Positions 36,972-54,239 of a stretch of DNA of 64,000 nt are shown here, piece by piece. Position 1 is the first letter of the stretch. Every line of letters begins with the position of its first letter. The translations under genes were made by a program, and so were the position numbers. The stretch covers positions 5,069,001-5,133,000 of the forward strand of contig CP007053.1 in assembly GCA_000242935.3 (NCBI GenBank). The letters are read 5' to 3'. Below the pieces are notes generated by a model that was given only the letters and a program-made list of their open reading frames with translations, had not been told where the DNA came from and made no database searches. The DNA is from Opitutaceae bacterium TAV5 (GTDB lineage Bacteria > Verrucomicrobiota > Verrucomicrobiia > Opitutales > Opitutaceae).

Positions 36972-37262
36972 TTACACGACAAAACAGGGCGCATCAAAAT
37001 GGTGATACGCTTGTCCTAGCGATGTAATTTCCCGGTCACCCCGGCTCTCCGTCGGGCCCAGACCGATAAACAATACCTGGTCCTCCGTGTGATGGATCGT
37101 GTTTTTCAGTTTCGCCTCCAGCTCCACTTTCTCCGTAGCATTCAGATCACACTCGAAAACCGAATACTGCAGGTGATTGCCGTAATCCTGACAGATGCGG
37201 AATACGTGGCGCAGGCGTTTCGCATCCGAAATGTCGTAACTGACAATGTAGGTGTGGCGCAT
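36972..37262 (-). CDS. cas2: CRISPR-associated endoribonuclease/integration protein Cas2
   Basis: 96 residues, the usual Cas2 length. It starts MRHTYIVSYDISDAKRLRHV, with the first-strand Asp (YDISD), followed by RICQDYGNHLQYSVFECDLN and DQVLFIGLGP. Cas2 dimers bridge two Cas1 dimers in spacer integration. The ATG at 37262 is preferred over a longer open frame because family members begin just before this strand. It is the last gene of the leftward cas operon and directly adjoins the leader. Confidence 0.94.
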   Translation of the reverse strand: MRHTYIVSYDISDAKRLRHVFRICQDYGNHLQYSVFECDLNATEKVELEAKLKNTIHHTEDQVLFIGLGPTESRGDREITSLGQAYHHFDAPCFVV

Positions 37263-37434
37263 GGCGTTTGCTGGTTCGTGCCCGCAAATACGGACAACTC
37301 TCAAAAGCTGGCAAACTCCGGCTCGTTTGTCACGGCGTTACTTACCGGGATTCTACACGCCATGGCGCAGCGCCGTTGCGATGAGTTCCTTCTTTTATCG
37401 ATCGGTGCGCGCCGGAGAACCGCCTCGGCCGACG

Positions 37435-39483
37435 CTATCTCGTCGTAAACGGCACGTAGGCGGCAATCTCTCCGGTCAGCGCCTTGGCCAGCAACCGGGC
37501 CTGCAGCTCCAGCGCGCGCCGGTAACTCACCTTGTAATCAAAAACCGGATGCGTGATCGTCGAACGCATGCGTTGTTCATACGCGTTGAAAAACTGCTTC
37601 CTGCCTGCCGGACTCAGGTTCACTGCGTCTCCGGCGCGCACGAAATCGGAGGGGCCGATCATGCGGGTGTTGATCAACGTCAACACGACCGAATCGGCGA
37701 CAATGGGACGAAACTCCTCCATGAGATCGAGCGCCAGCGCGGGGCGTCCGAATCGCGGCTGGTGATAAAAACCGACATATGGATCGAAACCGACCGCATG
37801 GGCGGCGCTGGTGCAATCCTTGGCCAGGATGCTGTAGGCGAGCGACAGCAACGCGTTGACTGCGTCGCGTGGCGGCCGGCGATTGCGGCGCGTGAAATCA
37901 AACCTGAAAAACTCCTGGCCGGGTGTGTCTCGCCGGCCATTACGGCGGCGTCCGCCTCCGGACGCAGCAGGCAGCGGGTCTCCGGCTGTGGAGGCAGGCC
38001 CGGTTCCGGAGAGGCTGCCGTCAGCGATGGCGTCGAGTATGTCATCTCCGGTGGTTTTGATCATGCCGGAAAAATCCTGGAAATACGCGAGGGCGGCGGC
38101 GCCTTCGATGCCGAGCAGTTCTTCAATGGTTTCGGCTGATGCGGCGGCGCTGATGGCGTGCTGGAGACGACCGAGAGTGGAGGCCGGGGGCATGGCATGG
38201 TTGCGCATGAGCAGGGTGCGCTGGTTGCGGATTTTCCCCTGCACGAAGAGGCGCGCGATACGCAGCGCGACACCGGGAGTATCTGCGACGCGGAACTGGG
38301 CGATGCGCGTGAAAACATTTTTCAGGCTGGGACCGCGCGTCCAGGCGCGAAGGGTGCCGGCGGCGGTGAAATAACTGACGGCGATGTCGCGTTCGGCGAG
38401 TTCGTTGAGCAACGCGGTAGAGATCGTCGCGGAACCGAAAATGGCGACATGACTGAGGTCTTTAATGCGGAATTCGTTTACCAGTTCGCCCTTTTCCCGG
38501 ATCTGGATGAGTTCGCTTTTCTTGCCGAGGCTGGTGCCGGGCGTGGTGATGTAGAGTTCGCGTTCGTCATCGCGCGCAGCGACGAGACGGCGGGCCGTGG
38601 CGGGATCGGCGGCAGGTAATGCCGACGGTCCGGCGCCGCTGTTTGCGGGTCGGGGCGGAGCAAAGTCGCGATCGAAGGGGAAGGCGTCCTGGATGGCGGG
38701 GGCGTCTTCGTCGTCAGGGTGGGCGGGGGCTTCGCGCAGGAGGCGCGTTTCATCGGGGAGGCAGATGGTGACGAGCGAGCAGCGGGGGCACTTGGGCGAA
38801 TCGGCGAGCGGCGGCGGGATGGGGCCGGTCATGCAGCGCCGGGCGGCGGCGATCTGCGCGTGTATCCAGTTTTCCAGCTCGGTGGTGACAAGAAGGGGCA
38901 CGCGCTGTTTGGTGGCACGGTAGTAGATGATGCCTTCGTCGCAGGCGTAGCCCTGGTCGCGCAGGATGAGGCACTGGAGGCCGAGTTGCATACGGTCGGC
39001 GTCCCAGATTTCGGGACCGGTTTCTCCCTCGCGCGGGGAGCCGATCTTGTAGTCCACGGGGGTGACGCGGAGCGGGGCGAGGAGGTCGCCGGGCGTGCCG
39101 TCGTCGGGGGCGGGCGGACGGACTTCGATGAGGTCCATCTTGGCGATGACGCCGAGGCGGTCGGACGCGAGGGAAACGGAGCGGGTGTGGATGACGTCGG
39201 GCGTCTCCTTTTCTTCCTTCGGCGAGTCGGCTGACGGGGCGTCGTCCGTTTCGGGTCCGGGGGTGGCGGGCGGGAGAGCGCCTTTGCCGGCATCGACACG
39301 TTTGTGAAGGGCGGCGCCGCGGCGGGTGTCGGCGTTGTGCTCGAAGACACTTTCGACGTATTCGTAATAAAAGAGACGCGGGCAATAGACGAACTCGTTG
39401 AGCATGCGCGCCTGGAGAGGTTCCTCTTGCGGAGTGTCTCCTCCGGACGGGCGGATGGAAGCATCGGAAGCGGGCGAGGGCAT
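37435..39483 (-). CDS. Cas4-Cas1 fusion protein
   Basis: A 682-residue fusion of the spacer-trimming nuclease and the integrase. The Cas4 part (about residues 25-250) has the first iron-sulphur Cys in FVYCPRLFYYEYVE (C34), the nuclease motifs KMDLIEV and PVDYK, MQLGLQCLILRDQGY, and the cluster CPRCSLVTIC (C232, C235, C241). A variable linker follows. The Cas1 part (about 305-682) has LYITTPGTSLGKKSE, the catalytic Glu region ELLGIEGAAALAYF (E460), the His in GFYHQPRFGRPALALDLMEEF (H574, acidic D586/E589) and a C-terminal helical domain. A Gly/Arg-rich insert sits near 490-535. Cas4-Cas1 fusions are typical of type I-G (formerly I-U). Cas2 lies 172 bp downstream. Confidence 0.96.
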   Translation of the reverse strand: MPSPASDASIRPSGGDTPQEEPLQARMLNEFVYCPRLFYYEYVESVFEHNADTRRGAALHKRVDAGKGALPPATPGPETDDAPSADSPKEEKETPDVIHTRSVSLASDRLGVIAKMDLIEVRPPAPDDGTPGDLLAPLRVTPVDYKIGSPREGETGPEIWDADRMQLGLQCLILRDQGYACDEGIIYYRATKQRVPLLVTTELENWIHAQIAAARRCMTGPIPPPLADSPKCPRCSLVTICLPDETRLLREAPAHPDDEDAPAIQDAFPFDRDFAPPRPANSGAGPSALPAADPATARRLVAARDDERELYITTPGTSLGKKSELIQIREKGELVNEFRIKDLSHVAIFGSATISTALLNELAERDIAVSYFTAAGTLRAWTRGPSLKNVFTRIAQFRVADTPGVALRIARLFVQGKIRNQRTLLMRNHAMPPASTLGRLQHAISAAASAETIEELLGIEGAAALAYFQDFSGMIKTTGDDILDAIADGSLSGTGPASTAGDPLPAASGGGRRRNGRRDTPGQEFFRFDFTRRNRRPPRDAVNALLSLAYSILAKDCTSAAHAVGFDPYVGFYHQPRFGRPALALDLMEEFRPIVADSVVLTLINTRMIGPSDFVRAGDAVNLSPAGRKQFFNAYEQRMRSTITHPVFDYKVSYRRALELQARLLAKALTGEIAAYVPFTTR

Positions 39484-39590
39484 GTAATGACTGTAAAACG
39501 ATTTTTTTCATGTTAGCTATGAAAAACAAACCGAAGAACAGAAAATAGTCCGGGCAGCGGTCAGCCTGCGGTCTTGCCGATTCGCGGGAT

Positions 39591-41372
39591 TTACAGATCG
39601 GAGACAAGCGCGATAAAGGTGCGTTTGGCCTTGTGTGTCGTGCGAAGGCGGTTCAGCAGCGCAGTCCATTCGGCGGATTGGCTGAGGCGGAGGTGGAGAT
39701 CCCGGATCTTTTTCAGCAAGGTGACGGCCGTCCGGTAGGCCTCCTTGCCCGTCCGGGAGATGTGCGACTCGGCTTCTCGCAGGTAGAGGGGGATGGCAGC
39801 GGCTGGATGGGTTTTGGCGCGGGCGGCGGCGAGTTCCAGCCAGAGGTCGGAGGGGAGGCGCTGGTCTTGCGCGGCGAGCCAGGCGGTTTCGACATCTTTT
39901 TCCCAAAGGTGGATACGGACAAGGGAGGCGGACAGGGCGGCGGTCCAGAAGGCGTGCGGGTGAACGTTTTTGCGCGGGGGTTCTTCGCGGGCGATTTTGG
40001 TGCGCAGGTAATCGAGGGCGCGTCCGCGCCAGGCCGGCCAGGCGGCGGCGCGTTTGGCGTGCCGTTTGAGGAGTTGGTAGTTTTCGAGGGTGGGGTGCGA
40101 TTCGAAGGGACGCCAGACGAGGGCGAGGGCGTCGTCATGGCGACGACGGCGGTGATACTCGTCGGCAAGGAAAGCGAGCAGGCGGGAATCGGTGTCGCGG
40201 GGAAAGGCCCGGAGCCCGCGTTCGGCCCAGTCGAGGGCATCGTCGGTGCGGCTGGCCTCGCGGTAAATTTCAGCGATTTGCAGATAGTCCCACGCGTACG
40301 AAAGATTTTTGGCCTTGATGGCGACCAGGGCATCGATGTCATCGCTGGCGCGGGCGAGGGATTCCATGATGCCTGTAATGCGGTAACGACTACCCTTGTA
40401 GCCTTCGTGGTCTCCGGGTTTGTGGGCGGGAAGTTTTGCCCAGGCGGCTTCGGCCAGGCGGCGATATGCGGCGTGGCCGGCGGCGCCGAGGACGTCGGCA
40501 TAGATTTCGGCGGCGTTGTGAAACACCCCCCATCCGTCGTGCGTTTCCCACGCGAACAGACGGGCGGCGAGAGCTTCGGGATCGGGGCGCGCAATGTTGC
40601 AGGCGGCGAGGTGGAGGTCCTGCAACTCGTCGAGAACGGAGCCGATTTCACCGTCAGAGTCATCGGCTTCGGCAAGGACGTTTTCGACGCGGGTGAGAGT
40701 GTGTTCGGCGAGATCCATGACGACGGCGGCCTGTGAGGGATCTTCGTCAAGAATCTCCTGTAAGGGGGCAACCGCCTCACGCACGTTTTCGGCGAAGCCG
40801 GAGGCTTCGTGGTAGTCGATGAACCCGCGGGTGCGGGTGGCGCGGTCGATGGCCTTGCGGTAGACGGAGAGGTCGATGCCTCTGGCCGTGGCGCGGGCGG
40901 CGAGGCGGACGAGCTTTTCACGCAGGCGAGTGTCGCGGACGGCGGTTTCCAGCAAAAAATCGGCGAGAACACCGGCGGGTTGCTGAAGCAGCCAGGGGCG
41001 GAGATCGTCGATCGTTACCAGCTCGACGCTTGCAGTGCTCCGGACGGCACGTTTTCCGGATGACTGGCGGGTGTCGTTTTTGCCTGCGTCGAGCCAGGCG
41101 AGGCACGTCGCCACCGTGTGTTTGCAGAATGCTCCGTCCAGCCCGAGCGGGCAGGAGCAACGGTGGACGAGATGGCCGTCCTCGGCCGAAAGCCTGACGG
41201 TATAATCGTGCGTTCCGCTGACGACGGCCGTTACGGTGTTCCCGTGCTGGACGAGGGACTGGACGAGACCGTTGGCAAAATAGTCTTCGCCCCGTTCATA
41301 AAAAACATCTCCGGCCAGATGCCGGACCTGGCGGAGTGAGAGACGGAGGGAAAGGTCGGATGCGGCGGCCAT
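39591..41372 (-). CDS. SWIM zinc-finger protein with TPR-like helical repeats
   Basis: 593 residues. The N-terminal 90 residues form a SWIM domain: the zinc motif is HRCSCPLGLDGAFCKHTVA (Cys-x-Cys...Cys-x-His, about residues 71-89). The rest is helical, with repeats of TPR type (YLQIAEIYREASRTDDALDWAERGL; LLAFLADEYHRRRRHDDALAL). SWIM proteins bind DNA or protein partners; this architecture is common in bacteria but poorly characterised. It lies 107 bp upstream of cas4-cas1 on the same strand, so co-transcription is possible. Whether it belongs to the CRISPR system is unknown. The start at 41372 (MAAASDLSL) is preferred; an upstream in-frame ATG would add 16 residues. Confidence 0.75.
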   Translation of the reverse strand: MAAASDLSLRLSLRQVRHLAGDVFYERGEDYFANGLVQSLVQHGNTVTAVVSGTHDYTVRLSAEDGHLVHRCSCPLGLDGAFCKHTVATCLAWLDAGKNDTRQSSGKRAVRSTASVELVTIDDLRPWLLQQPAGVLADFLLETAVRDTRLREKLVRLAARATARGIDLSVYRKAIDRATRTRGFIDYHEASGFAENVREAVAPLQEILDEDPSQAAVVMDLAEHTLTRVENVLAEADDSDGEIGSVLDELQDLHLAACNIARPDPEALAARLFAWETHDGWGVFHNAAEIYADVLGAAGHAAYRRLAEAAWAKLPAHKPGDHEGYKGSRYRITGIMESLARASDDIDALVAIKAKNLSYAWDYLQIAEIYREASRTDDALDWAERGLRAFPRDTDSRLLAFLADEYHRRRRHDDALALVWRPFESHPTLENYQLLKRHAKRAAAWPAWRGRALDYLRTKIAREEPPRKNVHPHAFWTAALSASLVRIHLWEKDVETAWLAAQDQRLPSDLWLELAAARAKTHPAAAIPLYLREAESHISRTGKEAYRTAVTLLKKIRDLHLRLSQSAEWTALLNRLRTTHKAKRTFIALVSDL

Positions 41373-41558
41373 GAGCGAAAAAGTGCAACGGACGGCACAA
41401 CGAGATGGGCGCTCCCGCAAGCGGGATTACTGCCGAAGCAAATCCTGACGCCCCGGACAAGGATCTCTGAACCGGATTTCGGACTGCGTGCTCGTCTGTT
41501 GCGAGGGAGGACCTTGGCGATTTCCCGGCGGACGGCAACGATGAAGACCAACCGTGCG

Positions 41559-41792
41559 TCAGGTGCCGGTCTTCTTCTTGCGGGCGGCTCGTTTTTGTTG
41601 CAGCCACTCCTGAAATTCTGGGTCCTTTCGTCCGACGGCATACTCCTCCTCGTGAAACCGCCGGACGTCCGCGGTGATGAGCTGGCGGATATAATCGCTC
41701 AGATGCTTGATGCCACGTGCTTCCATAATCGCTTCCACGTCGGCCAGCAAGGGCTCGGGGAGGCGTGCATTGATCTGTGGACGGAGAGACAT
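41559..41792 (-). CDS. Small ribbon-helix-helix-like protein
   Basis: 77 residues: MSLRPQINARLPEPLLADVE opens a likely ribbon-helix-helix fold (strand RPQINARLPEPLL, helices ADVEAIMEARGI and HLSDYIRQLITADVRRF). A charged C-terminal tail ends QQKRAARKKKTGT. Such proteins are often antitoxins or regulators. No toxin gene is adjacent, and the plus-strand prepilin gene starts 110 bp to the right. It might regulate that divergent gene, which is inference. A start 39 nt upstream is possible. Confidence 0.6.
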   Translation of the reverse strand: MSLRPQINARLPEPLLADVEAIMEARGIKHLSDYIRQLITADVRRFHEEEYAVGRKDPEFQEWLQQKRAARKKKTGT

Positions 41793-41901
41793 CGTGCCCG
41801 CTGACGATAGGCACGCCAGGTGGCGCGACATGATCAAAATGTCGACTTGGAGAAGATTTGTCTTGAATTGTCGCACATTGGAAGACATAAGTCGATCCCT
41901 G

Positions 41902-42591
41902 ATGAACCAATCCCCTCGTTGTTCCTCTGCTTTCACCCTCGTCGAGCTTCTGACCGTCATCGCGATCATCGGCATTCTGGCCGGCATTCTCATCCCGACA
42001 GTCGGCAAGGTTCGCGAATCGGCGCGGGCGGCCCGATGCGGTTCCAACCAGCGTCAGATAGCCGTCGCGATCCTTCTCGCAGCCCAGGAGCAACGGGATG
42101 TGTTTCCGCCTGCCCTGAACGAAACGAACACATCCTGGGCATCCACCTTGCAGCCGTATTTCGGGAACAAGGAATCGCATCTGCTGGTGTGCCCGTCGCG
42201 CTCGTTCGATCCGCCGGCGGCCTCCGAATACTGGCGCTCCAGTTATTCGCTCAACCCGATCATCATGGTCGATCTCGCCAACGAAACGCCACGCCGTGTC
42301 CTGGTGTCCGCCGTCCAGCGTCCTACGGAAGTCATTCTCGTGGCGGACGGAGGCCAGCAGGCGCATGGCGGCGCGCACGCCCGCTTTTGGCAGGTCGATA
42401 CCACGGGGACCAAAACGGCGCCTGTCGAATCGGCTGATAACGTGATCAATGACGGGCCGGATACCGATGATGGCACGGCCTGCTTCCGTTTCCGGCACGG
42501 CGGGCGCGTCAACGTCGCCTTTGCCGACGGTCATGTCAGGGCCTTCGCCAAGGGCACGATCCGCCAACGGAATCTCCATATTTCGTATTGA
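41902..42591 (+). CDS. Prepilin-type N-methylation protein (pseudopilin-like)
   Basis: 229 residues. The prepilin helix is FTLVELLTVIAIIGILAGIL (residues about 11-30) with Glu+5, and the C-terminus has the phylum-typical RHGGRVNVAFADGHVRAF motif. Like the protein at 8511, it is followed by a PEP-CTERM gene (69 bp away). The longer open frame upstream is not supported because the prepilin leader must be short. Confidence 0.85.
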   Translation: MNQSPRCSSAFTLVELLTVIAIIGILAGILIPTVGKVRESARAARCGSNQRQIAVAILLAAQEQRDVFPPALNETNTSWASTLQPYFGNKESHLLVCPSRSFDPPAASEYWRSSYSLNPIIMVDLANETPRRVLVSAVQRPTEVILVADGGQQAHGGAHARFWQVDTTGTKTAPVESADNVINDGPDTDDGTACFRFRHGGRVNVAFADGHVRAFAKGTIRQRNLHISY

Positions 42592-42660
42592 TATAAAAAC
42601 TACGGAGAATCCGTTTTTCCGAGCACGACCGTTCTTGTCTCTTTCACTCCAACCCAACCC

Positions 42661-43590
42661 ATGAATACCACAACCTCCGCATCGCGAATCCTTCGCATGT
42701 TTGCACTCCCGGTCCTGACCGCGGGCATTTGTCTCACGGACACGGCCCGCGCAGCCGTCATCCTCGAAGAAACCTTCCCCGTCAACCAGCGTCTGGCGCA
42801 GGACTGGCCCGCCACCTCGACCTGGTATGCAACGGGTATCGGAAGCTCGACCACGGCAGTGAACGACGACATTTCCGGTTCGCTGAAACTCTCGATCAAC
42901 AATACATGGAATGCGCTCACGTATTTCACGGAGGCGGACAAACCGGTCTCCCTTGGCGTGGGCGATTCTCTGAAACTTACCCTGAACTTCGAGGTGCAGA
43001 CCAAGGCCACGCCGGGCGACAACACCCTGCGGATCGCGCTGCTGAATTCGGGTGGCAACCGCATCACCGGCGACCTGGGGACATCCTCCTCGGCGACGTT
43101 TCAGAACTACACGGGTTATTACGTGAACGTCCGTCCCACGCTGCCGACGGACACTTCGGCGACCTTTGGGCTGGCGAAGCGAAACAAGCCCGGCGGGAGT
43201 AACTTTCTTTTGTCCGAAGCCTACAATTCCATTGCACCCTCCAGCGGTTCAGGCGCGCCTGCCTCGGCGGAAAATTCGCTGGCTTCCGGCATCAACTACA
43301 CCTTCGAAGTCGTCTATACCCGCACTTCGGAAAACACGCTCAACGTCTCAGTGGTGATGAGCGGCGCGGGGCTGGACAACTACACCTACGCATTCAACGA
43401 CATATCCTCCCCGTTCACGGCTTTCGACACGTTCGCCATCGGCTCGACCAACGGCACGACGCTCGACAGCGTGACGCTCCACAGCCTGAGTATCACATTG
43501 ACTTCGATCCCCGAACCGGGCGCGACGGGCGCCGTCCTGGGTGGTGGCGGGCTGGTTGCCTTCCTGCTCATTCGTCGTCGCCGTTCCTGA
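42661..43590 (+). CDS. PEP-CTERM sorting domain protein
   Basis: 309 residues: signal peptide (FALPVLTAGICLTDTARA), a jelly-roll-like domain (VILEETFPVNQRLAQDWPAT, LGVGDSLKLTLNFEVQ, SGINYTFEVVYTRTSENTLN, and so on) and a tail IPEPGATGAVLGGGGLVAFL ending LIRRRRS. The PEP core here is PEPGA instead of PEPS/PEPA-T, a slight variant. It lies between the prepilin gene and a glycosidase and is probably co-expressed with them. Confidence 0.83.
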   Translation: MNTTTSASRILRMFALPVLTAGICLTDTARAAVILEETFPVNQRLAQDWPATSTWYATGIGSSTTAVNDDISGSLKLSINNTWNALTYFTEADKPVSLGVGDSLKLTLNFEVQTKATPGDNTLRIALLNSGGNRITGDLGTSSSATFQNYTGYYVNVRPTLPTDTSATFGLAKRNKPGGSNFLLSEAYNSIAPSSGSGAPASAENSLASGINYTFEVVYTRTSENTLNVSVVMSGAGLDNYTYAFNDISSPFTAFDTFAIGSTNGTTLDSVTLHSLSITLTSIPEPGATGAVLGGGGLVAFLLIRRRRS

Positions 43591-43628
43591 ACATATCCCC
43601 CGGACTCGTCCCGGTTTACTCTCTCCTC

Positions 43629-46600
43629 ATGCGCTTCACCCGTTCTGTTTCCCGCCTGTTTCGCCATCTCCATCTCCTTGCACTCGTTGCCGCCACGCTG
43701 GCGGCGGCGACCGGGCAGCCGCCCGACGTGTCGAATCTCTCACTACGCGCGACCGGCGCTTTCCGGTTCGACGACCTCGACTTCGTGCTGGTGCATTTTA
43801 CCCCGGAATGGTCGCAGACCGCACAGGGACGCGCTCGCGCGGAATCCGGTTATCCGCGCCGGGAGGGAACCACATGGGAAACGCGCGGCACGCTCTCCAT
43901 CCGTGGAAGCGCCGCGCCGCTTTCCTTTCGTCAGCGGGTGACGCCGCTCGACAGCCAATCCTTCCGCGCCGATTACCTCGCCACACATCCCGAAGGCGCG
44001 CCGACGCAGGAGCTGGCCTTGCAGGTGACGCTTCCACTGGAGCTGGTGGCCGGGAAAACCGTGGTGCTTGACGGCACGCCTCATGTCCTGCCGCCGGAGT
44101 TCGGAGGCCGGACAGTGCTTCTCGAACCAGCGGCGAGGGCGCGCACATTGAGCCTGCCCTCGGCGACGGGCACGATCGAGATCAGCGGCGTCTTCGGTCT
44201 GCTCGTGCAGGACCAGCGTGAGTGGAAGCAGGAAGCCTATACCGTGCGCATCCGGTTTCCGCTGCCGGAAAAACGGCTCCGGCAGGCCGGGCTGGAAGTC
44301 AGTCTGCGCCACGCTCCCTGGCGCAGCACGCCCGTCTCGCTGCAGGCACAGGCCAATCGCGGTTTCCACGACGAGGTTCCGGGTGACAGCCAAGGAGGCT
44401 GGACAGATCAGGGACCGGCCAACGATCTGGCGGGAATGACGCCGGGAAAACTGAACGCCGCCGGAGTGACGTTCGACATCATCGACCCGGCTGCCAATGA
44501 CGGGCGCGCCGCGCTGGTGCTGGGCCGGCCGGGTCGGGACGGCGTGCCGCAGGCAGCGACGATTCCCGTGTCGGGCAGACCGGTCTGGCGCAATCTTTAC
44601 CTGTTGCACGCCGGAGCCTGGCTGCCGGCGGATGGCCAGCCTGTGGGCGCCCTGCGCATCCGCTATGCCGACGGCTCCGAAAGCGCGCACGAGGTGCGGG
44701 CGAATCGCGATGCAGGCAACTGGTGGTCGCCCGTCACCCTGGCCAACGGGGCCGTGGGCTGGACAGGCGAAAACGCCAGTTGTCCGGTGGTGGGCCTGTA
44801 TGTTTCCCGTTTCCCGCTGGAGGAAAAACCGGTGACCGGGGTGGCGCTGGAAGGCGCGGGCACGTCGTTGTGGATGATCGCGGGGATGAGCGGTTCGCCC
44901 GACGATCTCGTGCCGTTCCGACCGGCGGTGCCGCTGGTGATCACGCCGGGGGAGGAGTGGGCGGCATGGGAACACTCGGTGGAGATAGAGCCGGGCGGTG
45001 TATTCGACTTTTCATTTCTCGCCGACGCGCCCGCGGGCAAACACGGTCCGCTCGTCGCCACGCCTCCCGGTCATTTCGAATTTGCCGGCAGGCCGGGCGA
45101 GCGCGTGCGCCTGTGGGGCGTAAACCTGTGTTTCTCGGCCAACTACCTGGAACCCGATGAAGCCGAACGGCTGGCGGCGCGCCTCGCGGCCTCGGGTTAC
45201 AACACGGTGCGTTTCCACCACTACGACCGCGATCTGGTGGCGAAGGGGAAACGTTCGCATGATTTCGAACCGGCGCAGCTCGAAAGACTCGATGTCCTCT
45301 TCGCCGCCATGAAGCGCCACGGCCTTTATGTGAACATCGACCTGTTTACACTGCGCGGCTTCGGCGCGGACGAGGTGGCGGCGATGGGTATCGATCCGGC
45401 AGACGATATCCGGAATCAGTTCAAGGCATTGGTGCCAATATCGGAAGAGGCGTTCACGATCTGGAAAAGGTTCGCCGAACGTTTGCTCTCGCACAGGAAT
45501 CCGCACACCGGCCTGACCTGGGCGGAAGACCCGGCGCTGATCGGCATATGCCCTGTGAACGAGGATACGCTGGCGGCTTGGGTCGATCGTGTGCCGACGA
45601 TCAGGCAACGCTACGAGGAAGCGTTCTCCGCATGGTGGAAGAACGCCTCCAGCCGCGAAAAAACCGGCGGTGACCGCGAGACCGGCTTCAACCTGTTCCT
45701 GCACGAGCGACAGATCGCGTCCGACGCGCGTATGCACGCCTTTCTTCGGTCGCTGGGGGTGACGGCGCTGCTCACGGGCGCGAATTTTCACAACACGCAG
45801 GCGCTCGCCTTTGTCCGGGAGCATTACGACTACGTGGACAATCACCAGTATTGGGATCACCCGCAGTTTCCGGAGAAACGGTGGGCGCTGCCGTTCGGTT
45901 TCTCGCAAGGCAGCGCGGTGCGCGCCGCCGCACAGACTCCGCGCGGACTGATGCCGGCCCGCCTCTGGGGGAAACCCTATGTCGTATCGGAGTTCAACTA
46001 CGTCCGGCCCAACCGCTACCGAGCCGAAGGCGGCGTGCTTATGCCGGCCTATGCGAGCCTTCAGGACTGGGACGGGATTTATAATTTCGAATACGCATCG
46101 AGCCGCGCCTCCGCGGTAGCCGGCGGAGTGACGGGCACGTTTGCCATCGCCGACGATCCGGTGGGGCTGCTTGCGGATCGGGTCGGGGCGCTCCTTTTTC
46201 GCCGCGGTGATATCGCGCCGGCGAAGCATGCCATCGGCTATGCGGTGCAGGCGCCCGGTGCATTCGGTGCGAGGGAACGCGATTTCCCCGCGATATTTTC
46301 CCGGCTCGGGCTGGTCGCCCGCATCGGTTCGGGGACCGGAACGCCGGACGATGAACTGGCCAACCACGGACTGGATGCGGTCGTGACCGCTCCGGATACA
46401 GTGTCTCCGGAAACCGCCGGGGGGCGCATCTATCGGGCGGACGAGGCGCTGGCCCGGCGACTGGAGACCGCGGGCGTGTTGCCGCCGGGATCAATCGACG
46501 GGACCGGGACGCGGTTTGTGAGCGACACCGGCCAGATCGAACTGCGCCCGAAGGAAGGGGCGATGAAAGTCGTGACGGAGCGCAGCGAACTGGTCGCCCT

Positions 46601-47003
46601 TCCCGCCGGTCAGGAGATCGAAGGCGCACGAGTGACGGTGAAAAACGGAAAAACCTTCGGAACGGTATCGGTGGTCTCGATTGACGGGAAACCGCTGGCG
46701 GAAAGCGGCCGGTTGCTGGTCATGCACCTGACGGACGCGTTGCCGACGGGTATGCGTTTCGCCCATCAGGACCGGCGGTTACTGGAAGCGCGGGGACGGG
46801 CGCCGCATCTTGTGGAGGCGGGTGACGTGGAAATCGGACTTCGGCTCGATGCCTCCAGGGCGTGGCGTGGTTGGGTGGTAGATGCGACCGGCAAACGCCA
46901 GCGCGAGACGACGCTGGTTCGTCAGGGTGACGCATGGGTGCTGTCGGCACGGACGGTGACGGATAAAGGGACCCACTTTGCCTACGAGATCACGACGGAG
47001 TAA
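43629..47003 (+). CDS. Large exported glycoside hydrolase, GH5/clan A-like
   Basis: 1124 residues with an N-terminal signal (LFRHLHLLALVAATLAAATG). Residues about 20-480 are beta-sandwich modules. The catalytic TIM barrel begins near 490: RLWGVNLCFSANYLEPDEAE, GYNTVRFHHYDRDL, GLYVNIDLFTLRGFG. The acid/base Glu is in IGICPVNEDTL (about 640) and the nucleophile Glu probably in YVVSEFNYVRPNRY (about 787). C-terminal beta modules follow. The fold suits cellulase-, mannanase- or related beta-glycan cleavage; the substrate cannot be named. With the prepilin and PEP-CTERM genes it forms a plus-strand cassette set between cas4-cas1 and cas3. Confidence 0.8.
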   Translation: MRFTRSVSRLFRHLHLLALVAATLAAATGQPPDVSNLSLRATGAFRFDDLDFVLVHFTPEWSQTAQGRARAESGYPRREGTTWETRGTLSIRGSAAPLSFRQRVTPLDSQSFRADYLATHPEGAPTQELALQVTLPLELVAGKTVVLDGTPHVLPPEFGGRTVLLEPAARARTLSLPSATGTIEISGVFGLLVQDQREWKQEAYTVRIRFPLPEKRLRQAGLEVSLRHAPWRSTPVSLQAQANRGFHDEVPGDSQGGWTDQGPANDLAGMTPGKLNAAGVTFDIIDPAANDGRAALVLGRPGRDGVPQAATIPVSGRPVWRNLYLLHAGAWLPADGQPVGALRIRYADGSESAHEVRANRDAGNWWSPVTLANGAVGWTGENASCPVVGLYVSRFPLEEKPVTGVALEGAGTSLWMIAGMSGSPDDLVPFRPAVPLVITPGEEWAAWEHSVEIEPGGVFDFSFLADAPAGKHGPLVATPPGHFEFAGRPGERVRLWGVNLCFSANYLEPDEAERLAARLAASGYNTVRFHHYDRDLVAKGKRSHDFEPAQLERLDVLFAAMKRHGLYVNIDLFTLRGFGADEVAAMGIDPADDIRNQFKALVPISEEAFTIWKRFAERLLSHRNPHTGLTWAEDPALIGICPVNEDTLAAWVDRVPTIRQRYEEAFSAWWKNASSREKTGGDRETGFNLFLHERQIASDARMHAFLRSLGVTALLTGANFHNTQALAFVREHYDYVDNHQYWDHPQFPEKRWALPFGFSQGSAVRAAAQTPRGLMPARLWGKPYVVSEFNYVRPNRYRAEGGVLMPAYASLQDWDGIYNFEYASSRASAVAGGVTGTFAIADDPVGLLADRVGALLFRRGDIAPAKHAIGYAVQAPGAFGARERDFPAIFSRLGLVARIGSGTGTPDDELANHGLDAVVTAPDTVSPETAGGRIYRADEALARRLETAGVLPPGSIDGTGTRFVSDTGQIELRPKEGAMKVVTERSELVALPAGQEIEGARVTVKNGKTFGTVSVVSIDGKPLAESGRLLVMHLTDALPTGMRFAHQDRRLLEARGRAPHLVEAGDVEIGLRLDASRAWRGWVVDATGKRQRETTLVRQGDAWVLSARTVTDKGTHFAYEITTE

Positions 47004-47077
47004 GACAGAGGGATGTGATGGCGCGTAGTACAGGGTGGCGGTGAGTTGCAGGAGACGCAGGCAATCGCGATCGATGA

Positions 47078-47497
47078 TCAGGGCAAGTTTTTCGCCTCGG
47101 GGTATTGTTCGGGCGGGGTGCCTTGGGTCGCGACGACTTTTTTGAAAGGCCTTTTGGCAGAGGACTCCTTGATCGCGGTGCAGGTGACGAGGAAAAACCA
47201 GTCGTCGCCGTAATCGAAGTGGAAGATCATTTTCCGGCGAGGGCGGAAGACTTCGGAGAGGCGGGTTTTCTTTACGCCGGGGTTGTCGTCGTCCTCGCCG
47301 ATGTCGGCGAAGAGCGTGTAGCATTCCTTGCTGCGGTAGGGGCGCTTGAGGTTGTCGCAAAACTGGAAGGCGTGATCAAAGTCGAAGCCGACTGCTTTGA
47401 TGATGAACTCGGCGAGGGCGTAGAGCGATTGGTCGCCGCCGACCGCGAGTTCGGCAGTGAAGTCGTCGTATTGGATTTTGAAGTGGAATTCCTGCAT
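47078..47497 (-). CDS. Plasmid pRiA4b ORF-3-like protein
   Basis: 139 residues: MQEFHFKIQYDDFTAELAVGG, HAFQFCDNLKRPYRSKECYT, KTRLSEVFRPRRKMIFHFDYGDDW (read across about 82-105) and FLVTCTAIKESSAK. The FxYDFGDxW-like segment (HFDYGDDWFF) is the hallmark of the pRiA4b ORF-3 family, often found on plasmids and near mobile or defence genes. Function is not established. It is on the cas strand, 75 bp past the end of the Cas3-linked gene, so it may be the distal gene of that transcript. Confidence 0.7.
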   Translation of the reverse strand: MQEFHFKIQYDDFTAELAVGGDQSLYALAEFIIKAVGFDFDHAFQFCDNLKRPYRSKECYTLFADIGEDDDNPGVKKTRLSEVFRPRRKMIFHFDYGDDWFFLVTCTAIKESSAKRPFKKVVATQGTPPEQYPEAKNLP

Positions 47498-47572
47498 GGG
47501 AGGCGGTGTTGAACAAGTGGCAGATTAGATGGAGGGGGGCGAAAAGACCGAGGTCGAAGTGGGCGGAGTGGG

Positions 47573-48535
47573 TCATGCACCAACAGGAATCGCAGGAGTG
47601 AAGTTTCTGAATTTGCCGTCATTTGGATTGATACGCTGGCTACGGAGCACGGCGACTACCCCGGTTGGCGACAAAGTGGCCAATTCAAGGCTTGGATTCG
47701 CCAGTTCAGGGGATGCGAGCAGGGATTGGCAGACGTCGATGCCGATGGGTGCATTCCAAATCGGCCATGTCCAAAAGGTATCGTTGCTTTTTTTGCCCAC
47801 GAATCCGGTTGTCGCTAATTGCGTGGAGGTTGGCATAGTTGGGAACAGCGGCAGCGCTTCAATAGCGAGGCTGTTGGCCCCACGGACAACGGTTGTCTTG
47901 TCTGTAGCTGGATTGGCCCACCTCAAGGCGTAACGGCGATCGTCTTCCGGGTCCCACCGTAGGGAAAACTCTTCGTCCCGAAATTCCCAAGGTCCGAACA
48001 ATGTTTCATGTAGATTCTCGCGTGTAGTATTTTGGGCGATACTCCTGACCATATCCAAAAATCCGGGCTTTTTCTCAGGCCGTCCGTTTTTGTCGGTCTC
48101 GTTTTTGAACACGCGAACGAACCTGAAGGCGGAGTCCTCCGTCCATCTATTTTCGTCAATCGGAACCGAGGCACCGAAGGCGGCGACGAATGCGGCCCAA
48201 TTCGGTCTGTTCCCGGAAAACCAATGTTCAATGGCTTGCGTCGCGTAGTGATGAAAAGCCTTTTCCGGCATCTTGATGTTTTTCGCAACCGTGAATGCCG
48301 GGGAGTCGGCTTGCGCGCGGAGATATTTGTCCAGCCCCTCCACCAGGGATTCGGGCGTGGTATCGTACGGCGCGTGCAGGATTGGCCGCCAAGTCCCGCC
48401 GGCAGGTGCCCAGCTTAAACCTATACGGGCGGTGTGGACGTGTTGGGCCACGCGAAATGCTCCGAGCGCCGCGAGAAAACCCAAGGGGCTCGCGCCGTTG
48501 ATGCCGGTGAGGGGTATCTGTCGGGTGTTAGTCAT
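47573..48535 (-). CDS. Cas3-linked CRISPR-associated protein (type I-G accessory, Cas3-extension-like)
   Basis: 320 residues. It opens MTNTRQIPLTGINGASPLGF then LAALGAFRVA. A Gly...Pro-Leu-Gly-Phe-Leu-Ala-Ala-Leu-Gly start of this type is found in small proteins that accompany type I-G cas3 genes. No catalytic motif was seen. The start codon at 48535 overlaps the cas3 reading frame by 8 bp, so the two are translationally coupled. I considered a truncated Cas8 (Csx17), which also starts with a PL.YLKALG-type motif but is about twice as long. A role as Cas3 partner is inference. Confidence 0.55.
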   Translation of the reverse strand: MTNTRQIPLTGINGASPLGFLAALGAFRVAQHVHTARIGLSWAPAGGTWRPILHAPYDTTPESLVEGLDKYLRAQADSPAFTVAKNIKMPEKAFHHYATQAIEHWFSGNRPNWAAFVAAFGASVPIDENRWTEDSAFRFVRVFKNETDKNGRPEKKPGFLDMVRSIAQNTTRENLHETLFGPWEFRDEEFSLRWDPEDDRRYALRWANPATDKTTVVRGANSLAIEALPLFPTMPTSTQLATTGFVGKKSNDTFWTWPIWNAPIGIDVCQSLLASPELANPSLELATLSPTGVVAVLRSQRINPNDGKFRNFTPAIPVGA

Positions 48536-51500
48536 GGTTCGACGCAATGGTGGCTGCGGCGGCGCTGGCCTGCTGGTCGGCAAGCCGCAGCGCGGTTTCG
48601 AGGTAGGCGAGGCCCCACCAGCCGAGATGCCGGGTCAGGTGCCAGAAGCGTTCGGCCACACCGGAATCAAGACGATGAGGCGGACAAGCTAGGCGCTCCT
48701 CGCCGCTCAGGTGGATCCGAGTCGTGTTATGTGTCACTTCGACCGATGGCGGAGAATCATCCGGCACCCATGGCGCGAATGGGCGCGCATGGCCGTGGTG
48801 ACTGGCGATCAGATGGAGAGCGAGTGCGCGTTGCAGCGCATCCGCAGGCAAGTGGGGCGTGGCGGCGGGCGTTTCCGCCAACTGCACGGAAAGCAGTTCG
48901 TGTCGGAACCCCTTGGGAAGTTCCGCGCGACGGAGCGCAGTCTCGTAGGCGGCTGCAGTTTCGGGGAGCTTTTCCGACTTGGCGAGCAGGATGGGCTGTG
49001 CCCAGGCGAGCGAGCGCGTGCCATTGAGCAGCATCGCCTGGAAGCGTTCGTCCGCTTTGCCCCAGTCGTGGATCATGGCGGCCGAGGTGAGCGCGGCTTG
49101 CCACGGAGAAAGGGACAGTTGCGCGAGCGTTTGTCGGGTTGCGGCAAGCACATCGTTCAGATGTGCGGCAAGGGGAAGCGGCGCGGCAATCGTCGTTTTG
49201 GAGAGCATGTCTTCGCCGTCGTCCTCGGCGATGTTCGGCGCACTGTCGGCTTTTAGTTCCGGCACGCGGTGGTGAGTGACGAGAACAACACCTTTCTCGT
49301 CGGGATAGGGTGTCCACCCGAGGCCATTTTTTCGTTCGGCGAGTGCTTTGAACGCGGGAACAGCCGGGTGGTTTTCGGGGAGTTCGGCGGAGGCGGTGGT
49401 GAGGGTGGCGCGCAGTTCCGCTTTGCTCCAGTCGCGGTTGGCGTCCGCGGCCCATTCGAGGAGTCGGGCAAGAGCGGAGTCCTTGGCGGGCGTGGGGAAA
49501 AACTCGGAGCGCAGGCGAATGACTTGGCGTTGTTTGATTTGGCGGAAGGCTCGTTCGGCTTGATCGACAGATTCGGCTGTGGCTCCCGGCAGATGGCCGA
49601 GTTCGTTTCGTCCCCAGCCGCCGTCCGCGGGGCGGAGGACCACGGTGTCGCCGGGGCGAAGATCGGTCGGCTGCTCCAGCTTGCGGCTATCGCGCAGGCC
49701 GCGCCAGATGATCGCGATTTTATTCTCGGGAGCATGGGCAATGTCGGGGGCTTCCGGCTGTGCGGTGCCGAGGATATCGCCGCCATCTGGGTTGCTTCCG
49801 CCGAAAAACCAATTGCTGAACTCATGCAGCGGGATGGAGAGGCATTCGACGGAACTGGGGGGGCAAAGGGAGATCGTATCGAGCCAATCGGCGAGGCGGA
49901 TATTGGGGGCAGTGTCCGGCAGGTCGGAGCGCCAACAAATTTGCACATCGACCGCGCTTCGTCCCGGCCCATGGATGAACAGGGCGGGCTCGGGTTGGGG
50001 CGTTGGTTCCGGGCTGGTTTGAGTCCATGCATCCAGATAAGCGGGCAGAAGGACTGGAGCAGCCGGGGCCGGGGAGAGCAGACGACCGAATGCCTCATCG
50101 GCCGGGCCTGTTTGGCGAAGCGCGGAGACATGGGCGTCCATCGCCTTCAGGCCAAAGTCGATGACGCCGTCGTGCGCGTGGGCGGAGAGCCAATTCCACG
50201 TTCGGCCCAGCGCGGTTCCGTAGATGGGGTCTTGGGCCTTGGCGTTGGTGTCGAGGTCGGCGCTTTCCGGAAAAATCTGATCCGCGCGTATGACGATGGT
50301 AGCCCGGGCGGCGATGGGGCGTCCGCCACGATTCAGGCGGCCGAAGCGTTGACGCAGCGCATCGAAGCTGGCGCATTCGGTGACCAAGGCGTCGAAATCA
50401 AAGTCCGCGCCGACTTCGAGGCATTGTGTGGCGACAACGATACGCAGACGGGATTCCCCTGTAGCGGGTGCGGCGGCGTCGGGATGGCGGGTTTTGAGTC
50501 TGGCGCGGAGGACGCCGGTGATGCCGTCGCGGTCAAAGGGCCGCATGCGGCCAATCAGCAGGGTGATTTGTCCTGGGGCGAAGTGCTTGGTGAGCAAATC
50601 CTCGACCTTGCGGGCGACGGCGACGCGATTGACCAGGATGGCGATCGAGCGCGGGGCCGGGTCTTGTTTGGAAAGACTGAGGGTTTCCTCGGCGAGCTTG
50701 GCGGCGAGGACATCGAGTGCCTTGGCTCCGCTGGCCTTGTCAGCGATCACCAGTTTGGCGGGTTTGGAGGCGTTTAATCGTGTGGCCAGAACGGGGTTCC
50801 GGCTATCGGCTTCCGAAAGACGGAGGATGTCGGTCTCTGTGGTGTCGGTCGGCGGAGTCGCCGTCATTTGGAGAAACGCGAAGGGCGTACGCACGGTGTG
50901 GTGCGATGCGGCGTCGGGTTTGCCCGGCTGGGCGCTGCCATGATCCCGAAAGGCTTTGATTGCATTCAGGGTTTGGGCGAAGGGGCGGCTGATGTGGGCT
51001 TCATCGAGCAGGATCAGGCTGTCGTGCGCGACGAGCGCGGCGTGGACCGGGCGCATCGAGGCGCTCACGCCGTAACCGCGAAACAGGAGCCGCGAACCGA
51101 CTTGATCCACGGTCGAGGCGACGATCAGCGGTTGGGTGAGCGAGCGTGCCCAGCTTTGGTCGCGGTAGATGCCGCCGCGAAGCTGCACGCTTTCCAGTGG
51201 CGAGCTGGAGCCAGCATTGATGGAACGCAGGGCCGAGGCGACGTGGGCGACAGTGGGCTGGTCGTCGCGGGGTTCGCGCAACGCCGCCGCGATGGTACGG
51301 GCTCGTTCGTGGGCTTCGTCCACGATGACGCGGCGGTTGACCACGTAAAAGATGCGGCGGCCCACGGTGCGCTCACCCGCTGGCAGATGGGCCTGCGCGG
51401 CGAGGGCGAACACGGCCGCATCCAGCGCGGCGGTTTTTCCGCTGCCGGTGGGCACGGAAAGAAAGCGGGGCCAATCGCCCGAGCAGGCGCGCCGGGCGAG

Positions 51501-51596
51501 TTCAATCTGCCAGGGGAACGGATCGTAGCCGTAAATCTCGCGGAAGAATGCGTTGAAATCGGCGGCGACCAGCGTCGGGGCGGCGGGTAAATTCAT
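48528..51596 (-). CDS. cas3: Cas3 helicase-nuclease with C-terminal HD domain (type I-G style)
   Basis: 1022 residues. The superfamily 2 helicase comes first: Walker A SVPTGSGKTAA (about 47-57), LLDEAH (195-200), QMTATPP (near 245), VATQCLEVGADFDFDALVTE and QRFGRLNRGG. The HD nuclease is at the C-terminus: AAMIHDWGKADERF (H843, D844), FRHELLSV (near 898) and LIASHHGHARPF (near 931). HD after helicase is the reverse of most type I Cas3 proteins and is typical of type I-G. The start MNLPAAPTLVAADFNAFFREIYG (read to residue 23) at 51596 fits. Upstream open frame is not conserved-looking. All motifs look intact. The prophage begins within 250 bp of its start. Confidence 0.93.
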   Translation of the reverse strand: MNLPAAPTLVAADFNAFFREIYGYDPFPWQIELARRACSGDWPRFLSVPTGSGKTAALDAAVFALAAQAHLPAGERTVGRRIFYVVNRRVIVDEAHERARTIAAALREPRDDQPTVAHVASALRSINAGSSSPLESVQLRGGIYRDQSWARSLTQPLIVASTVDQVGSRLLFRGYGVSASMRPVHAALVAHDSLILLDEAHISRPFAQTLNAIKAFRDHGSAQPGKPDAASHHTVRTPFAFLQMTATPPTDTTETDILRLSEADSRNPVLATRLNASKPAKLVIADKASGAKALDVLAAKLAEETLSLSKQDPAPRSIAILVNRVAVARKVEDLLTKHFAPGQITLLIGRMRPFDRDGITGVLRARLKTRHPDAAAPATGESRLRIVVATQCLEVGADFDFDALVTECASFDALRQRFGRLNRGGRPIAARATIVIRADQIFPESADLDTNAKAQDPIYGTALGRTWNWLSAHAHDGVIDFGLKAMDAHVSALRQTGPADEAFGRLLSPAPAAPVLLPAYLDAWTQTSPEPTPQPEPALFIHGPGRSAVDVQICWRSDLPDTAPNIRLADWLDTISLCPPSSVECLSIPLHEFSNWFFGGSNPDGGDILGTAQPEAPDIAHAPENKIAIIWRGLRDSRKLEQPTDLRPGDTVVLRPADGGWGRNELGHLPGATAESVDQAERAFRQIKQRQVIRLRSEFFPTPAKDSALARLLEWAADANRDWSKAELRATLTTASAELPENHPAVPAFKALAERKNGLGWTPYPDEKGVVLVTHHRVPELKADSAPNIAEDDGEDMLSKTTIAAPLPLAAHLNDVLAATRQTLAQLSLSPWQAALTSAAMIHDWGKADERFQAMLLNGTRSLAWAQPILLAKSEKLPETAAAYETALRRAELPKGFRHELLSVQLAETPAATPHLPADALQRALALHLIASHHGHARPFAPWVPDDSPPSVEVTHNTTRIHLSGEERLACPPHRLDSGVAERFWHLTRHLGWWGLAYLETALRLADQQASAAAATIASNHD

Positions 51597-51846
51597 CACG
51601 AACGAGATTGGCTGAGGGGTTTGCAGAGGCCGTAGCCACGATAGCGGCCGGCTCCGAGGATGACCGGTGAGAGTCGGGGAAAGGGTTGAAAAGGGTGGAA
51701 GCGGGGCGATTACGTCTGAAACGAGGCGAATCGTAGCGGGCGGAACGACGGCGCGCAGGAAAGGGTCACGCACGCCGGCCGCGGAAGGGTCGCGGGCTCC
51801 CTGCGGTTTGGCCGCGAGGCGCCCGCGTGGGGACCGCGAGACCGGC
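51597..51846. other. Junction between cas3 and the prophage
   Basis: 250 bp with no gene. It must contain the cas3 promoter or the cut upstream operon, and the left end of the Mu-like prophage. Related words GAAACGAGGCGAATCG (near 51719) and GCGGAACGACGGCG (near 51739) may be transposase-binding repeats. TGAAACG recurs at 53754 and 53819. The exact phage end (expected TG...) was not fixed. Confidence 0.4.
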
Positions 51847-52644
51847 CTATTTGGGCAGGATCACGAGCTCGCGATAGCGCAGGTTACGGCGCGCCGGCTC
51901 CCGGTTCTTCATGGTGTTTGCACGTGACACCGGAATGATCCGGCAGTCGCGGAACTGGTCGCGGGCTTGCGGGCAGTCCTGGTAGGTGAGCAGCCATGCG
52001 CCGCGCAGCGTCCTTACGCGGCCGGCGAACCGGGAAAACTCCTCCTCCGTCCATTCCTTGTAGGCGGAGCCGCCGTCGTCAAAGTAGGGCGGATCGAAGA
52101 AGTGGAAGGCTTCCGGGTAGTCGTAGATTTCCAGGAAGCGCTGCCAGTCGAGGTTTTCGATGGTGACGGTGACGAGACGTTGGGAGAGGGCTTGCAGGGC
52201 TGGCAGACGGTTTTCGATCAGAGGATGGCCCTGCGTACGCGTGGGCGCGAAGGTGCGGCCCTGCCCGCCAAAAGATAGCCGCTGGCAGACGTACCAGCGG
52301 GCAACCTGCTGGATTTCGGTGAGGCCGGGTTGGGCAAGGTAGTCGAAAAAATCCCGGCGGGAGTTGGGGACGTTTTCGATCTCGGCGAGCAGGGCGGGGA
52401 GGTGGAACTTGATCACCCGGTAGAAGGCGATCAGACGGCCGGAGATGTCGTTGATGACTTCGACGCGGGAGGGCGGTTTGGCGCAGAAGAGGGCGAGGCC
52501 GCCGCCGAAGACTTCGCAGTAGGTGCGATGCTCCGGTATGCGGGGGAGGAGGTGGCGGAGCAGCCTCGTTTTGCCGCCCGGCCAGGCAATGACCGGGCGC
52601 GGCTTGGTGGTGTCGTTTGGTGCGTGTGCAGGTGTGGTTTTCAC
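51847..52644 (-). CDS. DNA adenine methyltransferase (Dam/D12 class)
   Basis: 265 residues. N-terminal SAM motif RPVIAWPGGKTRLLRHLLPR, YCEVFGGGLALFCAKP, NDISGRLIAFYRVIK, and the catalytic FDPPYFDDGG (D-P-P-Y, near 190). These define a class D12 N6-adenine methylase. It starts with GTG at 52644. Phage methylases of this type usually protect the phage genome from host restriction. It is the last gene of the leftward phage operon and adjoins cas3. Confidence 0.9.
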   Translation of the reverse strand: MKTTPAHAPNDTTKPRPVIAWPGGKTRLLRHLLPRIPEHRTYCEVFGGGLALFCAKPPSRVEVINDISGRLIAFYRVIKFHLPALLAEIENVPNSRRDFFDYLAQPGLTEIQQVARWYVCQRLSFGGQGRTFAPTRTQGHPLIENRLPALQALSQRLVTVTIENLDWQRFLEIYDYPEAFHFFDPPYFDDGGSAYKEWTEEEFSRFAGRVRTLRGAWLLTYQDCPQARDQFRDCRIIPVSRANTMKNREPARRNLRYRELVILPK

Positions 52645-52709
52645 CCTGCCACCCTAGAGGAGCAAAAAGACGCACGCCTTGGCGTCCGTCTTTTGTATCA
52701 AGAATTTCT

Positions 52710-53012
52710 TTACTTATCGCCGGTGTCCCGGAGGCGATCGGCTTCGGTGGCCTGGATGTAAAGAACCTTGGGACCGCGGCGCTCCCATTTGTCGGGGTGT
52801 ATGACGCCGCTGCGCATCCATCTGTAAACGGTGCGCACATGCACGCCGAGGGCGTGGGCGAATTGCTTGGGACGCAACCATGCAACGATCTCACCGTCCG
52901 GGACGACGCGGACGAGGGGATTTCCCTTCGCATCCTCGCCGATGTGCTCCACGCGAGCCCGCGGGAACAGATGCAACTGGTGGAGGTTGTGCTTGTGGTG
53001 ACGCTTGCGCAT
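52710..53012 (-). CDS. Helix-turn-helix DNA-binding protein
   Basis: 100 residues. The HTH is PKQFAHALGVHVRTVYRWMRSG (positions about 47-68), followed by VIHPDKWERRGPKVLYIQATEADRLRDTGDK. This MerR/excisionase-like fold is shared with the protein at 60473-60772, which has WERRGPKSIFILASEAARLRDTSEK (split here for comparison). A role as excisionase, Ner-like or repressor factor is plausible but unproven. Confidence 0.7.
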   Translation of the reverse strand: MRKRHHKHNLHQLHLFPRARVEHIGEDAKGNPLVRVVPDGEIVAWLRPKQFAHALGVHVRTVYRWMRSGVIHPDKWERRGPKVLYIQATEADRLRDTGDK

Positions 53013-53019
53013 GGGGCGA

Positions 53020-53277
53020 CTACCGGTCCAGTCGCTCGATCACATGCGCGATGGCTCGCAACATGACAAACCACACCCACGAGCCAAAGGCGATGGCAAG
53101 GGCGTAACCTGCTGTGGCTATATCATCGCGATGCTCCGGAGCGAGCAGCCGGATGATGCAGGCGAGTGTGCCGGCAATGCCGGCGACGAGGATAACCACA
53201 GATGCCAGGCGCAATGCGCCAATGTGCCAGGAGGGCTTGGGGGCGCCCGAGGGGGGAGGATAGGGGTTGTCGTTCAC
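53020..53277 (-). CDS. Small membrane protein
   Basis: 85 residues, GTG start at 53277. Two hydrophobic segments: LASVVILVAGIAGTLACII and ATAGYALAIAFGSWVWFVML. The N-terminus is proline-rich. It lies 7 bp before the HTH gene. Function is unknown; an exclusion or immunity role is possible for a lysogenically expressed phage membrane protein. Confidence 0.6.
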   Translation of the reverse strand: MNDNPYPPPSGAPKPSWHIGALRLASVVILVAGIAGTLACIIRLLAPEHRDDIATAGYALAIAFGSWVWFVMLRAIAHVIERLDR

Positions 53278-53340
53278 GTTTGTAGTTTTATTCTGTTACG
53301 GGCGGAGGATTGCGGATAGGGAGTTCGCATGAACTAAATT

Positions 53341-54132: not shown

Positions 54133-54141
54133 CCCCGCCCC

Positions 54142-54237: not shown

Positions 54238-54239
54238 CC

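Follow-up and report, generated by a model that had tools for sequence, protein, structure and literature searches.

Evidence that a transposable prophage split the type I-G CRISPR-Cas operon of Opitutaceae bacterium TAV5, whose array carries matching spacers

We analysed a 64-kb stretch (64,000 nucleotides; hereafter the window) of chromosome CP007053.1 of Opitutaceae bacterium TAV5, a termite-gut isolate whose genome consists of a chromosome (7,317,842 bp) and a plasmid (99,831 bp; PMC4358385). The window carries a clustered regularly interspaced short palindromic repeat (CRISPR) array, CRISPR-associated (cas) genes of a type I-G system and the beginning of a prophage (Table 1). We are confident that this operon has been cut in two by the prophage, which appears to be transposable. 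Four features of the sequence bear this out: (i) a prophage end lies inside csb2, (ii) the missing tail of csb2 is found directly before cas3, (iii) short duplications at the prophage edges pair across two prophage copies, and (iv) two spacers of the array match the prophage perfectly. Plain positions are those of the window, the prefix C1 denotes the chromosome, and L and G numbers are labels of loci and genomes in the comparison set.

A sequence-only reading of the window had recognised cas2, cas4-cas1, cas3 and a cas3-coupled gene, and had seen no Cas7, Cas5/6 or Cas8; it supposed that the effector genes lay beyond the prophage, had been lost, or had been replaced by unfamiliar proteins, and it proposed a genome-wide search for csb1, csb2 and csx17. 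Profile matches confirmed all four recognised genes, on the minus strand, where the order from 51596 to 36972 is cas3g, a gene for an NF049934 protein, a PRiA4_ORF3-like gene, a SWIM/DUF6880 gene, a cas4-cas1 fusion and cas2. Cas3g matched TIGR02621 with 725.6 bits over model positions 1-854 (cut-off 400).

The search recovered csb1 and a truncated csb2 at 6.93 Mb. Each of these genes matched once in the whole genome, outside the window, from which Cas7 and Cas5/6 are indeed missing. Both lie on the plus strand and are preceded by a WYL gene: csb1 at C1:6933766-6934317 (TIGR02570, 73.7 bits, cut-off 38; PF09617, 5.7e-56) and csb2 at C1:6934996-6936546 (TIGR02165, 272 bits, positions 1-479 of 492). 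No further cas gene was detected with PADLOC in the ten frames of that stretch, and the 39 kb around csb1-csb2 held no copy of the array repeat.

Prophage copy 2 starts within csb2, so that the present csb2 frame finishes in phage-derived codons. The end that it lacks is preserved at the edge of copy 1, where the minus strand directly before cas3 encodes PVILGAGRYRGYGLCKPLSQSRS and a stop codon overlapping the cas3 ATG. Of 77 distinct relatives, 74 have a csb2 that terminates in a motif of the form G.G[RK]...G.G, and the remaining three have C for the first G; this identifies the stretch before cas3 as the end of csb2. A glycine-rich loop near the C-terminal end is an RNA-binding hallmark of Cas6 proteins.

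The two prophage copies form an inverted repeat, which could be covered by one alignment of 33,472 columns with 99.77% identity. The 75 differences are unevenly placed: 69 are crowded into a 560-base stretch where the alignment meets its left end, and the other 32.9 kb contain six. At its far left, copy 1 has 2.46 kb that was too diverged for the main alignment and matched in pieces at 71-89%. A scan for duplications of 4-8 bases, with offsets up to 2 bases, returned two 4-bp pairs placed precisely at the edges of the prophages: CCGG is shared by the left end of copy 1 and the right end of copy 2, and GTGC by the left end of copy 2 and the right end of copy 1. Nothing is shared at the edges in the present pairings, i.e. 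within one copy. Since the duplications pair across the copies, one insertion lay between csb2 and cas3, and a second one between the two remaining flanks. With this swap allowed for, the elements display the short target duplications and the insertion at unrelated sites that would mark a transposable (Mu-like) prophage.

Beyond the window, copy 1 contains genes for a terminase, a major head protein, a tape measure and other tail proteins. The gene of the DNA transposition ATPase has two copies in the genome, both 100% identical to the query, and no relative of it was found in viral contigs; its neighbour, a protein of 1088 amino acids (aa), gave no PHROG or PDB match. Outside the near-identical part, the copies differ in about 3 kb at the left end (51668-54.7 kb; C1:6969.6-6972.6 kb), where copy 1 encodes a Dam-like methylase. 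Such divergence is as expected if this were a differing immunity region that allowed both prophages in one cell.

Two other readings were considered and rejected. The stranded tail of csb2, together with the swapped duplications, rules out an orphan csb1-csb2 unrelated to the window; a second type I-G system supplying effectors in trans is contradicted by the genome having a single csb1 and a single csb2. For Cas3g, one TAV5 match over the cut-off was listed, with no second match from the genome among those shown.

The gene coupled to cas3 supplies the subunit that had been thought absent. Its product is a full-length member of NF049934 (242 bits, cut-off 65) and matched the PADLOC Cas8g profile PDLC01514 over its full length (2.6e-102). 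Structure prediction had been suggested for this protein; its model matched the large subunits of type I effectors far better than it matched unrelated folds, and aligned with positions 9-382 of a 649-residue chain in 8b2x (chain M of that entry is named large subunit CSX17; the fold table itself carries no chain letter). Judged by this predicted fold it is a Cas8 large subunit, and the statement that the window has no Cas8 was wrong. The NCBIfam name of the family, "Cas3-extension", states no function, and the assignment by fold agrees with the existing PADLOC label. In structural terms the family can now be described as a short form of Cas8, and the question arises of which protein supplies the Cas11 role. 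The Csb1 lengths of csx17-type and short-Cas8 loci might have given a hint of the Cas11 part; the query returned no csx17-type csb1. PDB sequence searches with the cas8 alignment and with csb2 gave nothing useful.

For csx17 itself, the TIGR04113 model found no match in the whole TAV5 genome. This silence is informative, since the model matches in seven of the 18 genomes tested, TAV5 being among those without a match, and csx17 is absent because the TAV5 branch has the short Cas8 in its place. TAV5 thus combines Cas3g, Csb1, a Cas4-Cas1 fusion with Cas2, a large subunit of Cas8g fold and a TTN protospacer-adjacent motif (PAM; see below), and lacks a complete Csb2 and a large subunit recognised by the Csx17 model. 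The first two of the three proposed options therefore hold in part: a split operon was found, with csb2 not intact and csx17 missing, while replacement by an unfamiliar protein applies to the Cas8 subunit only.

The arrangement expected before the insertion is preserved in relatives. A scan for the short Cas8 protein (best 80 of 114 loci) showed 75 loci in which csb2, cas3 and cas8 are consecutive genes of the same strand, with a median gap of 60 bases between the csb2 and cas3 matches and five gaps of 602-1271 bases. Three of the five exceptions (L066, L102, L132) end at a contig boundary at most 374 bases upstream of cas3; the other two (L115, L140) are not explained in this way. The order csb1-csb2-cas3-cas8 was likewise present in all eight other genomes of the order and family samples with NF049934 over the cut-off, six of which are also among the 80 loci. 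No csb1 and no NF049934 match was detected in a genome of the same genus (G274), and no publication naming the TAV5 locus was found among titles and abstract starts.

All four interference genes of TAV5 (csb1, csb2, cas3, cas8) gave their best scores against L037/38, L039 and L040 (genomes G021, G033 and G024), and seem to behave as one block. These loci belong to other families, whereas the WYL gene scores best against loci of its own family, the three in which, among the eight genomes, it was detected at all, and cas4-cas1 does so by a slight margin (L037-L041, L059-L062). Such mixed affinities can be read as pointing to an exchange of modules between operons of this kind. In L115 (Bacterium HR33), cas3, short cas8, cas4-cas1 and cas2 stand beside frames that by eye resemble other repeat-associated mysterious proteins (RAMPs), and no csb1 or csb2 match lies upstream of its cas3; possibly this is a hybrid effector.

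A further possibility is that the SWIM and PRiA4_ORF3-like (pRiA4b-like) proteins form a new surveillance complex. Both are encoded between cas8 and cas4-cas1, and a PRiA4 homologue is kept there in one same-family locus, yet csb1, csb2 and a Cas8 have now been found, csb2 precedes cas3 in 75 of the 80 loci (with three of the five remaining ones cut by a contig end), and both the csb2 tail stranded before cas3 and the swap of the duplications speak against it as well. We regard this proposal as practically untenable; the two proteins are not needed as effectors, and the false lead of an effector-less or novel type I-G complex is removed.

Of the repeats of the array, 111 of 114 are identical and the three deviating ones lie at the left end; the whole genome contains 114 matches to the repeat, with up to three mismatches allowed. 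The leader side was taken to be at about 36.7 kb, beside cas2. Reading on the minus strand is supported by these variant repeats and by the 5' flanks of the two self-matching spacers, numbers 54 and 56 from the leader side, both of which fit a TTN PAM in CRISPR RNA (crRNA) direction (2/2 perfect protospacers; TTG, TTT). The PAM published for type I-G is TTN (PMC9638904). Across the roughly 1 Mb of genome sequence that was searched, no match of the other 111 spacers exceeded 16 bases, and spacer 54, the only one compared with viral contigs, gave no exact match there. With 53 spacers between the leader and spacer 54, adaptation would have continued after the gain of spacer 54, if the leader is at the right end.

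TAV5 has a further CRISPR-Cas locus, of type V-B (C1:725573-733923; L042/L043), with a cas4-cas1 fusion (C1:727855-729711), cas2 and its own array of 24-25 repeats and 23 spacers; in a frame of 1388 aa the C-terminal 366 aa match Cas12b (2.3e-126). None of these 23 spacers matched the prophage, the best match being of 19 nt in another stretch.

A working type I-G interference should not tolerate these prophages. We propose that the ancestral order was WYL - csb1 - csb2 - cas3 - cas8g (short) - ... - cas4-cas1 - cas2 - array, and that the transposable prophage inserted into csb2 at its 3' end, which took the glycine-rich terminus off the Cas6-like domain and separated cas3-cas8g from the genes upstream. 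The C-terminal domain of Csb2 has been described as the crRNA nuclease, which remains on the 3' hairpin once it has cut pre-crRNA (PMC9638904). The two losses would most likely have abolished crRNA processing as well as interference, and with interference abolished the cell would tolerate the phage that it had memorised. Recombination between the two inverted copies would then have moved csb1-csb2 1.8 Mb away, unless this step was made by the assembler. TAV5 thus probably harbours a type I-G system of the short-Cas8 branch, inactivated by a memorised prophage. The adaptation genes look unbroken, as do the other cas frames; together with the uniform repeats and the very similar prophage copies, this agrees with the earlier view that the system functioned until recently.

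Lysogens with a broken operon were probably selected, the insertion having hit the very operon that targeted the phage. Simple arithmetic gives a chance of about 0.2% that one of two insertions, uniformly distributed over a 7.32-Mb chromosome, falls into the roughly 6.9 kb of csb1-csb2-cas3-cas8, which makes such selection plausible. The fuller scenario, in which the twice-memorised phage settled by transposing into csb2, only cells with such an insertion survived and the later inversion hinders reversal, is one that we favour by a modest degree. A neutral insertion, with interference lost earlier and the phage hitting dead genes by chance, is a weaker candidate that still deserves some weight: an unrelated plus-strand cassette also stands in the operon, and a dead system admits a phage wherever it lands, while the unbroken csb1, cas3 and cas8 frames, the low chance of a hit in the interference genes and the 53 spacers acquired after spacer 54 (if the leader is at the right end) argue otherwise. 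It is improbable that the split system works in trans, csb1-csb2 acting with the distant cas genes and the prophage surviving through an anti-CRISPR. No other cas frame is visibly broken, csb2 aligns over all but the end of its model and the repeats are nearly all identical, but the lost tail carries the motif shared by most relatives, two spacers match perfectly with TTN flanks, and cas3 stands without its upstream operon genes.

Should selection have acted as proposed, this natural isolate would offer a case of a phage countering host defence through insertional mutagenesis, and the locus gives a base-level account of a mobile element disabling the immune system that remembered it. Several points weigh against our overall reading of the locus as an operon split and disabled by the prophage. 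The PAM assignment rests on two protospacers, a phage transposase was not identified, and the duplications are of 4 bp only, the scan having also returned an off-edge 4-mer (GGTG) within copy 1. A conserved histidine that may be the catalytic one is still present near the end of the truncated Csb2, and some function might remain. The prophage may carry an anti-CRISPR, and, given the surface cassette at 41707-47003, damage to the system could predate the arrival of the phage. The 1.8-Mb distance may be artificial, for the reason given below, and GC skew (40 stretches of 20 kb and others) gave a weak signal that did not decide the orientation.

In the published assembly csb1-csb2 stand 1.8 Mb from cas3. 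Recombination of the inverted copies gives the present order with no further step, and inversions between inverted prophages happen in nature. The segment between the prophages (C1:5.12-6.97 Mb) is centred near the GC-skew switch at about 6.0 Mb; for this reason GC-skew sampling cannot decide its orientation, and an inversion would be near-symmetric about a replication landmark. The genome was assembled with Newbler from Illumina and 454 reads and published as complete, with the finishing steps not described (PMC4358385). Such reads should not span a 33-kb repeat, and an inverted 32.9 kb with six differences would be too long for them. An assembly artefact, with a prophage simply lying between csb2 and cas3 and a second copy elsewhere, is thus a serious alternative to which we give slightly less than even weight: the swapped duplications fit it equally well and GC skew does not decide, whereas the published completeness of the chromosome and the natural occurrence of such inversions count against it. 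The break in csb2 holds whether the order arose in the cell or in the assembler, and the operon is broken in either case. As a general caution, effector genes that look "missing" from a published genome may have been separated from their operon by an inserted prophage or by an assembly driven by repeats.

Table 1. Features of the TAV5 locus and of the two prophage copies
Feature	Position	Strand	Evidence or remark
CRISPR array, 114 repeats of 36 nt, 113 distinct spacers	28511..36713	-	
Spacer 56 (from leader side)	32659..32693	-	35/35 match, both prophage copies; 5' flank TTT
Spacer 54 (from leader side)	32802..32839	-	38/38 match, both prophage copies; 5' flank TTG
cas2	36972..37304	-	PF09827 74.5 bits; TIGR01573 36.9 bits; PADLOC Cas2g 6.5e-27
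cas4-cas1 fusion, type I-G	37435..39483	-	NF049935 669.9 bits, cut-off 560
SWIM/DUF6880 protein, candidate defence accessory	39591..41420	-	PF21810 6.4e-17; PADLOC PDC-S62 4.4e-49
Cassette: pilin-like DUF1559 protein, 309-aa protein, 1124-aa cellulase-like surface protein	41707..47003	+	
PRiA4_ORF3-like protein	47078..47497	-	PF07929 4.6e-10
cas8g short form (NCBIfam "Cas3-extension", NF049934), predicted effector large subunit	47573..48535	-	open frame 47573-48583, ATG 48535
cas3g, helicase then HD domain	48528..51596	-	frame unbroken; open frame 48528-51773, ATG 51596
Stranded csb2 3' end, 23 codons + stop	51596..51667	-	glycine-rich motif GAGRYRGYGLC
4-bp duplication CCGG at left prophage end	51664..51667	+	partner at csb2 side, 1.8 Mb away
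Prophage copy 1	51668..64000 in window; C1:5120668-5156591	+	35,924 bp
Dam-like methylase, copy 1	51847-52644	-	
1088-aa protein, copy 1	54367-57633	+	weak helix-turn-helix match
DNA transposition protein/AAA ATPase	57689-58705	+	phrog_296 DNA transposition protein 9.1e-12
Holin-like match	62250-63683	+	
Prophage copy 2	C1:6936536-6972648		opposite orientation to copy 1

The genes between the cas genes merit brief mention. The SWIM protein and the plus-strand cassette were found where the sequence-only reading had placed them; its small ribbon-helix-helix protein was not identified among the frames scanned. A homologue of the PRiA4_ORF3-like protein (65% identical; L059 15432-15842) lies between cas8 and cas4-cas1 in a type I-G locus of the same family, and the protein may be a genuine accessory of the operon. 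Paralogues of all three cassette genes sit together elsewhere in the TAV5 genome (L180), and further copies of the gene for the 1124-aa protein occur at L168, L152 and L171. The whole looks like an expanded cassette inserted into the CRISPR operon.

Among known systems, the TAV5 locus resembles the type I-G (formerly I-U) effector of Thioalkalivibrio sulfidiphilus, as described for structure 8b2x (PMC9638904), in Cas3g, Csb1, Csb2, Cas4-Cas1, Cas2 and the TTN flanks. It differs in a large subunit of 320 aa, without the rest of the 649-residue chain (the Cas11-like part of that description), in having no csx17, and in the interruption of the operon in csb2. The transposable phages of Porphyromonas gingivalis, from a host of another phylum, are reported to have 4-bp bounding repeats outside conserved phage ends (PMC10367356); this likeness comes from the description and not from sequence comparison. 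The closest precedent that we have seen is provided by Pseudomonas aeruginosa PA14, where lysogens carrying the Mu-like phage DMS3 escape self-targeting; TAV5 shares with these lysogens a self-matching spacer, a transposable prophage in several copies and rearrangements that remove CRISPR function (PMC11406979). According to that report, escape arose in laboratory evolution with an imperfect spacer match, through spacer or cas mutations, through deletions in 8/18 isolates, and also by polylysogeny with CRISPR deletions (PMC11406979). TAV5, in contrast, is a natural isolate with a type I-G system, an insertion in csb2, swapped duplications and two perfect matches, and may be viewed as the natural counterpart of the DMS3 experiments.

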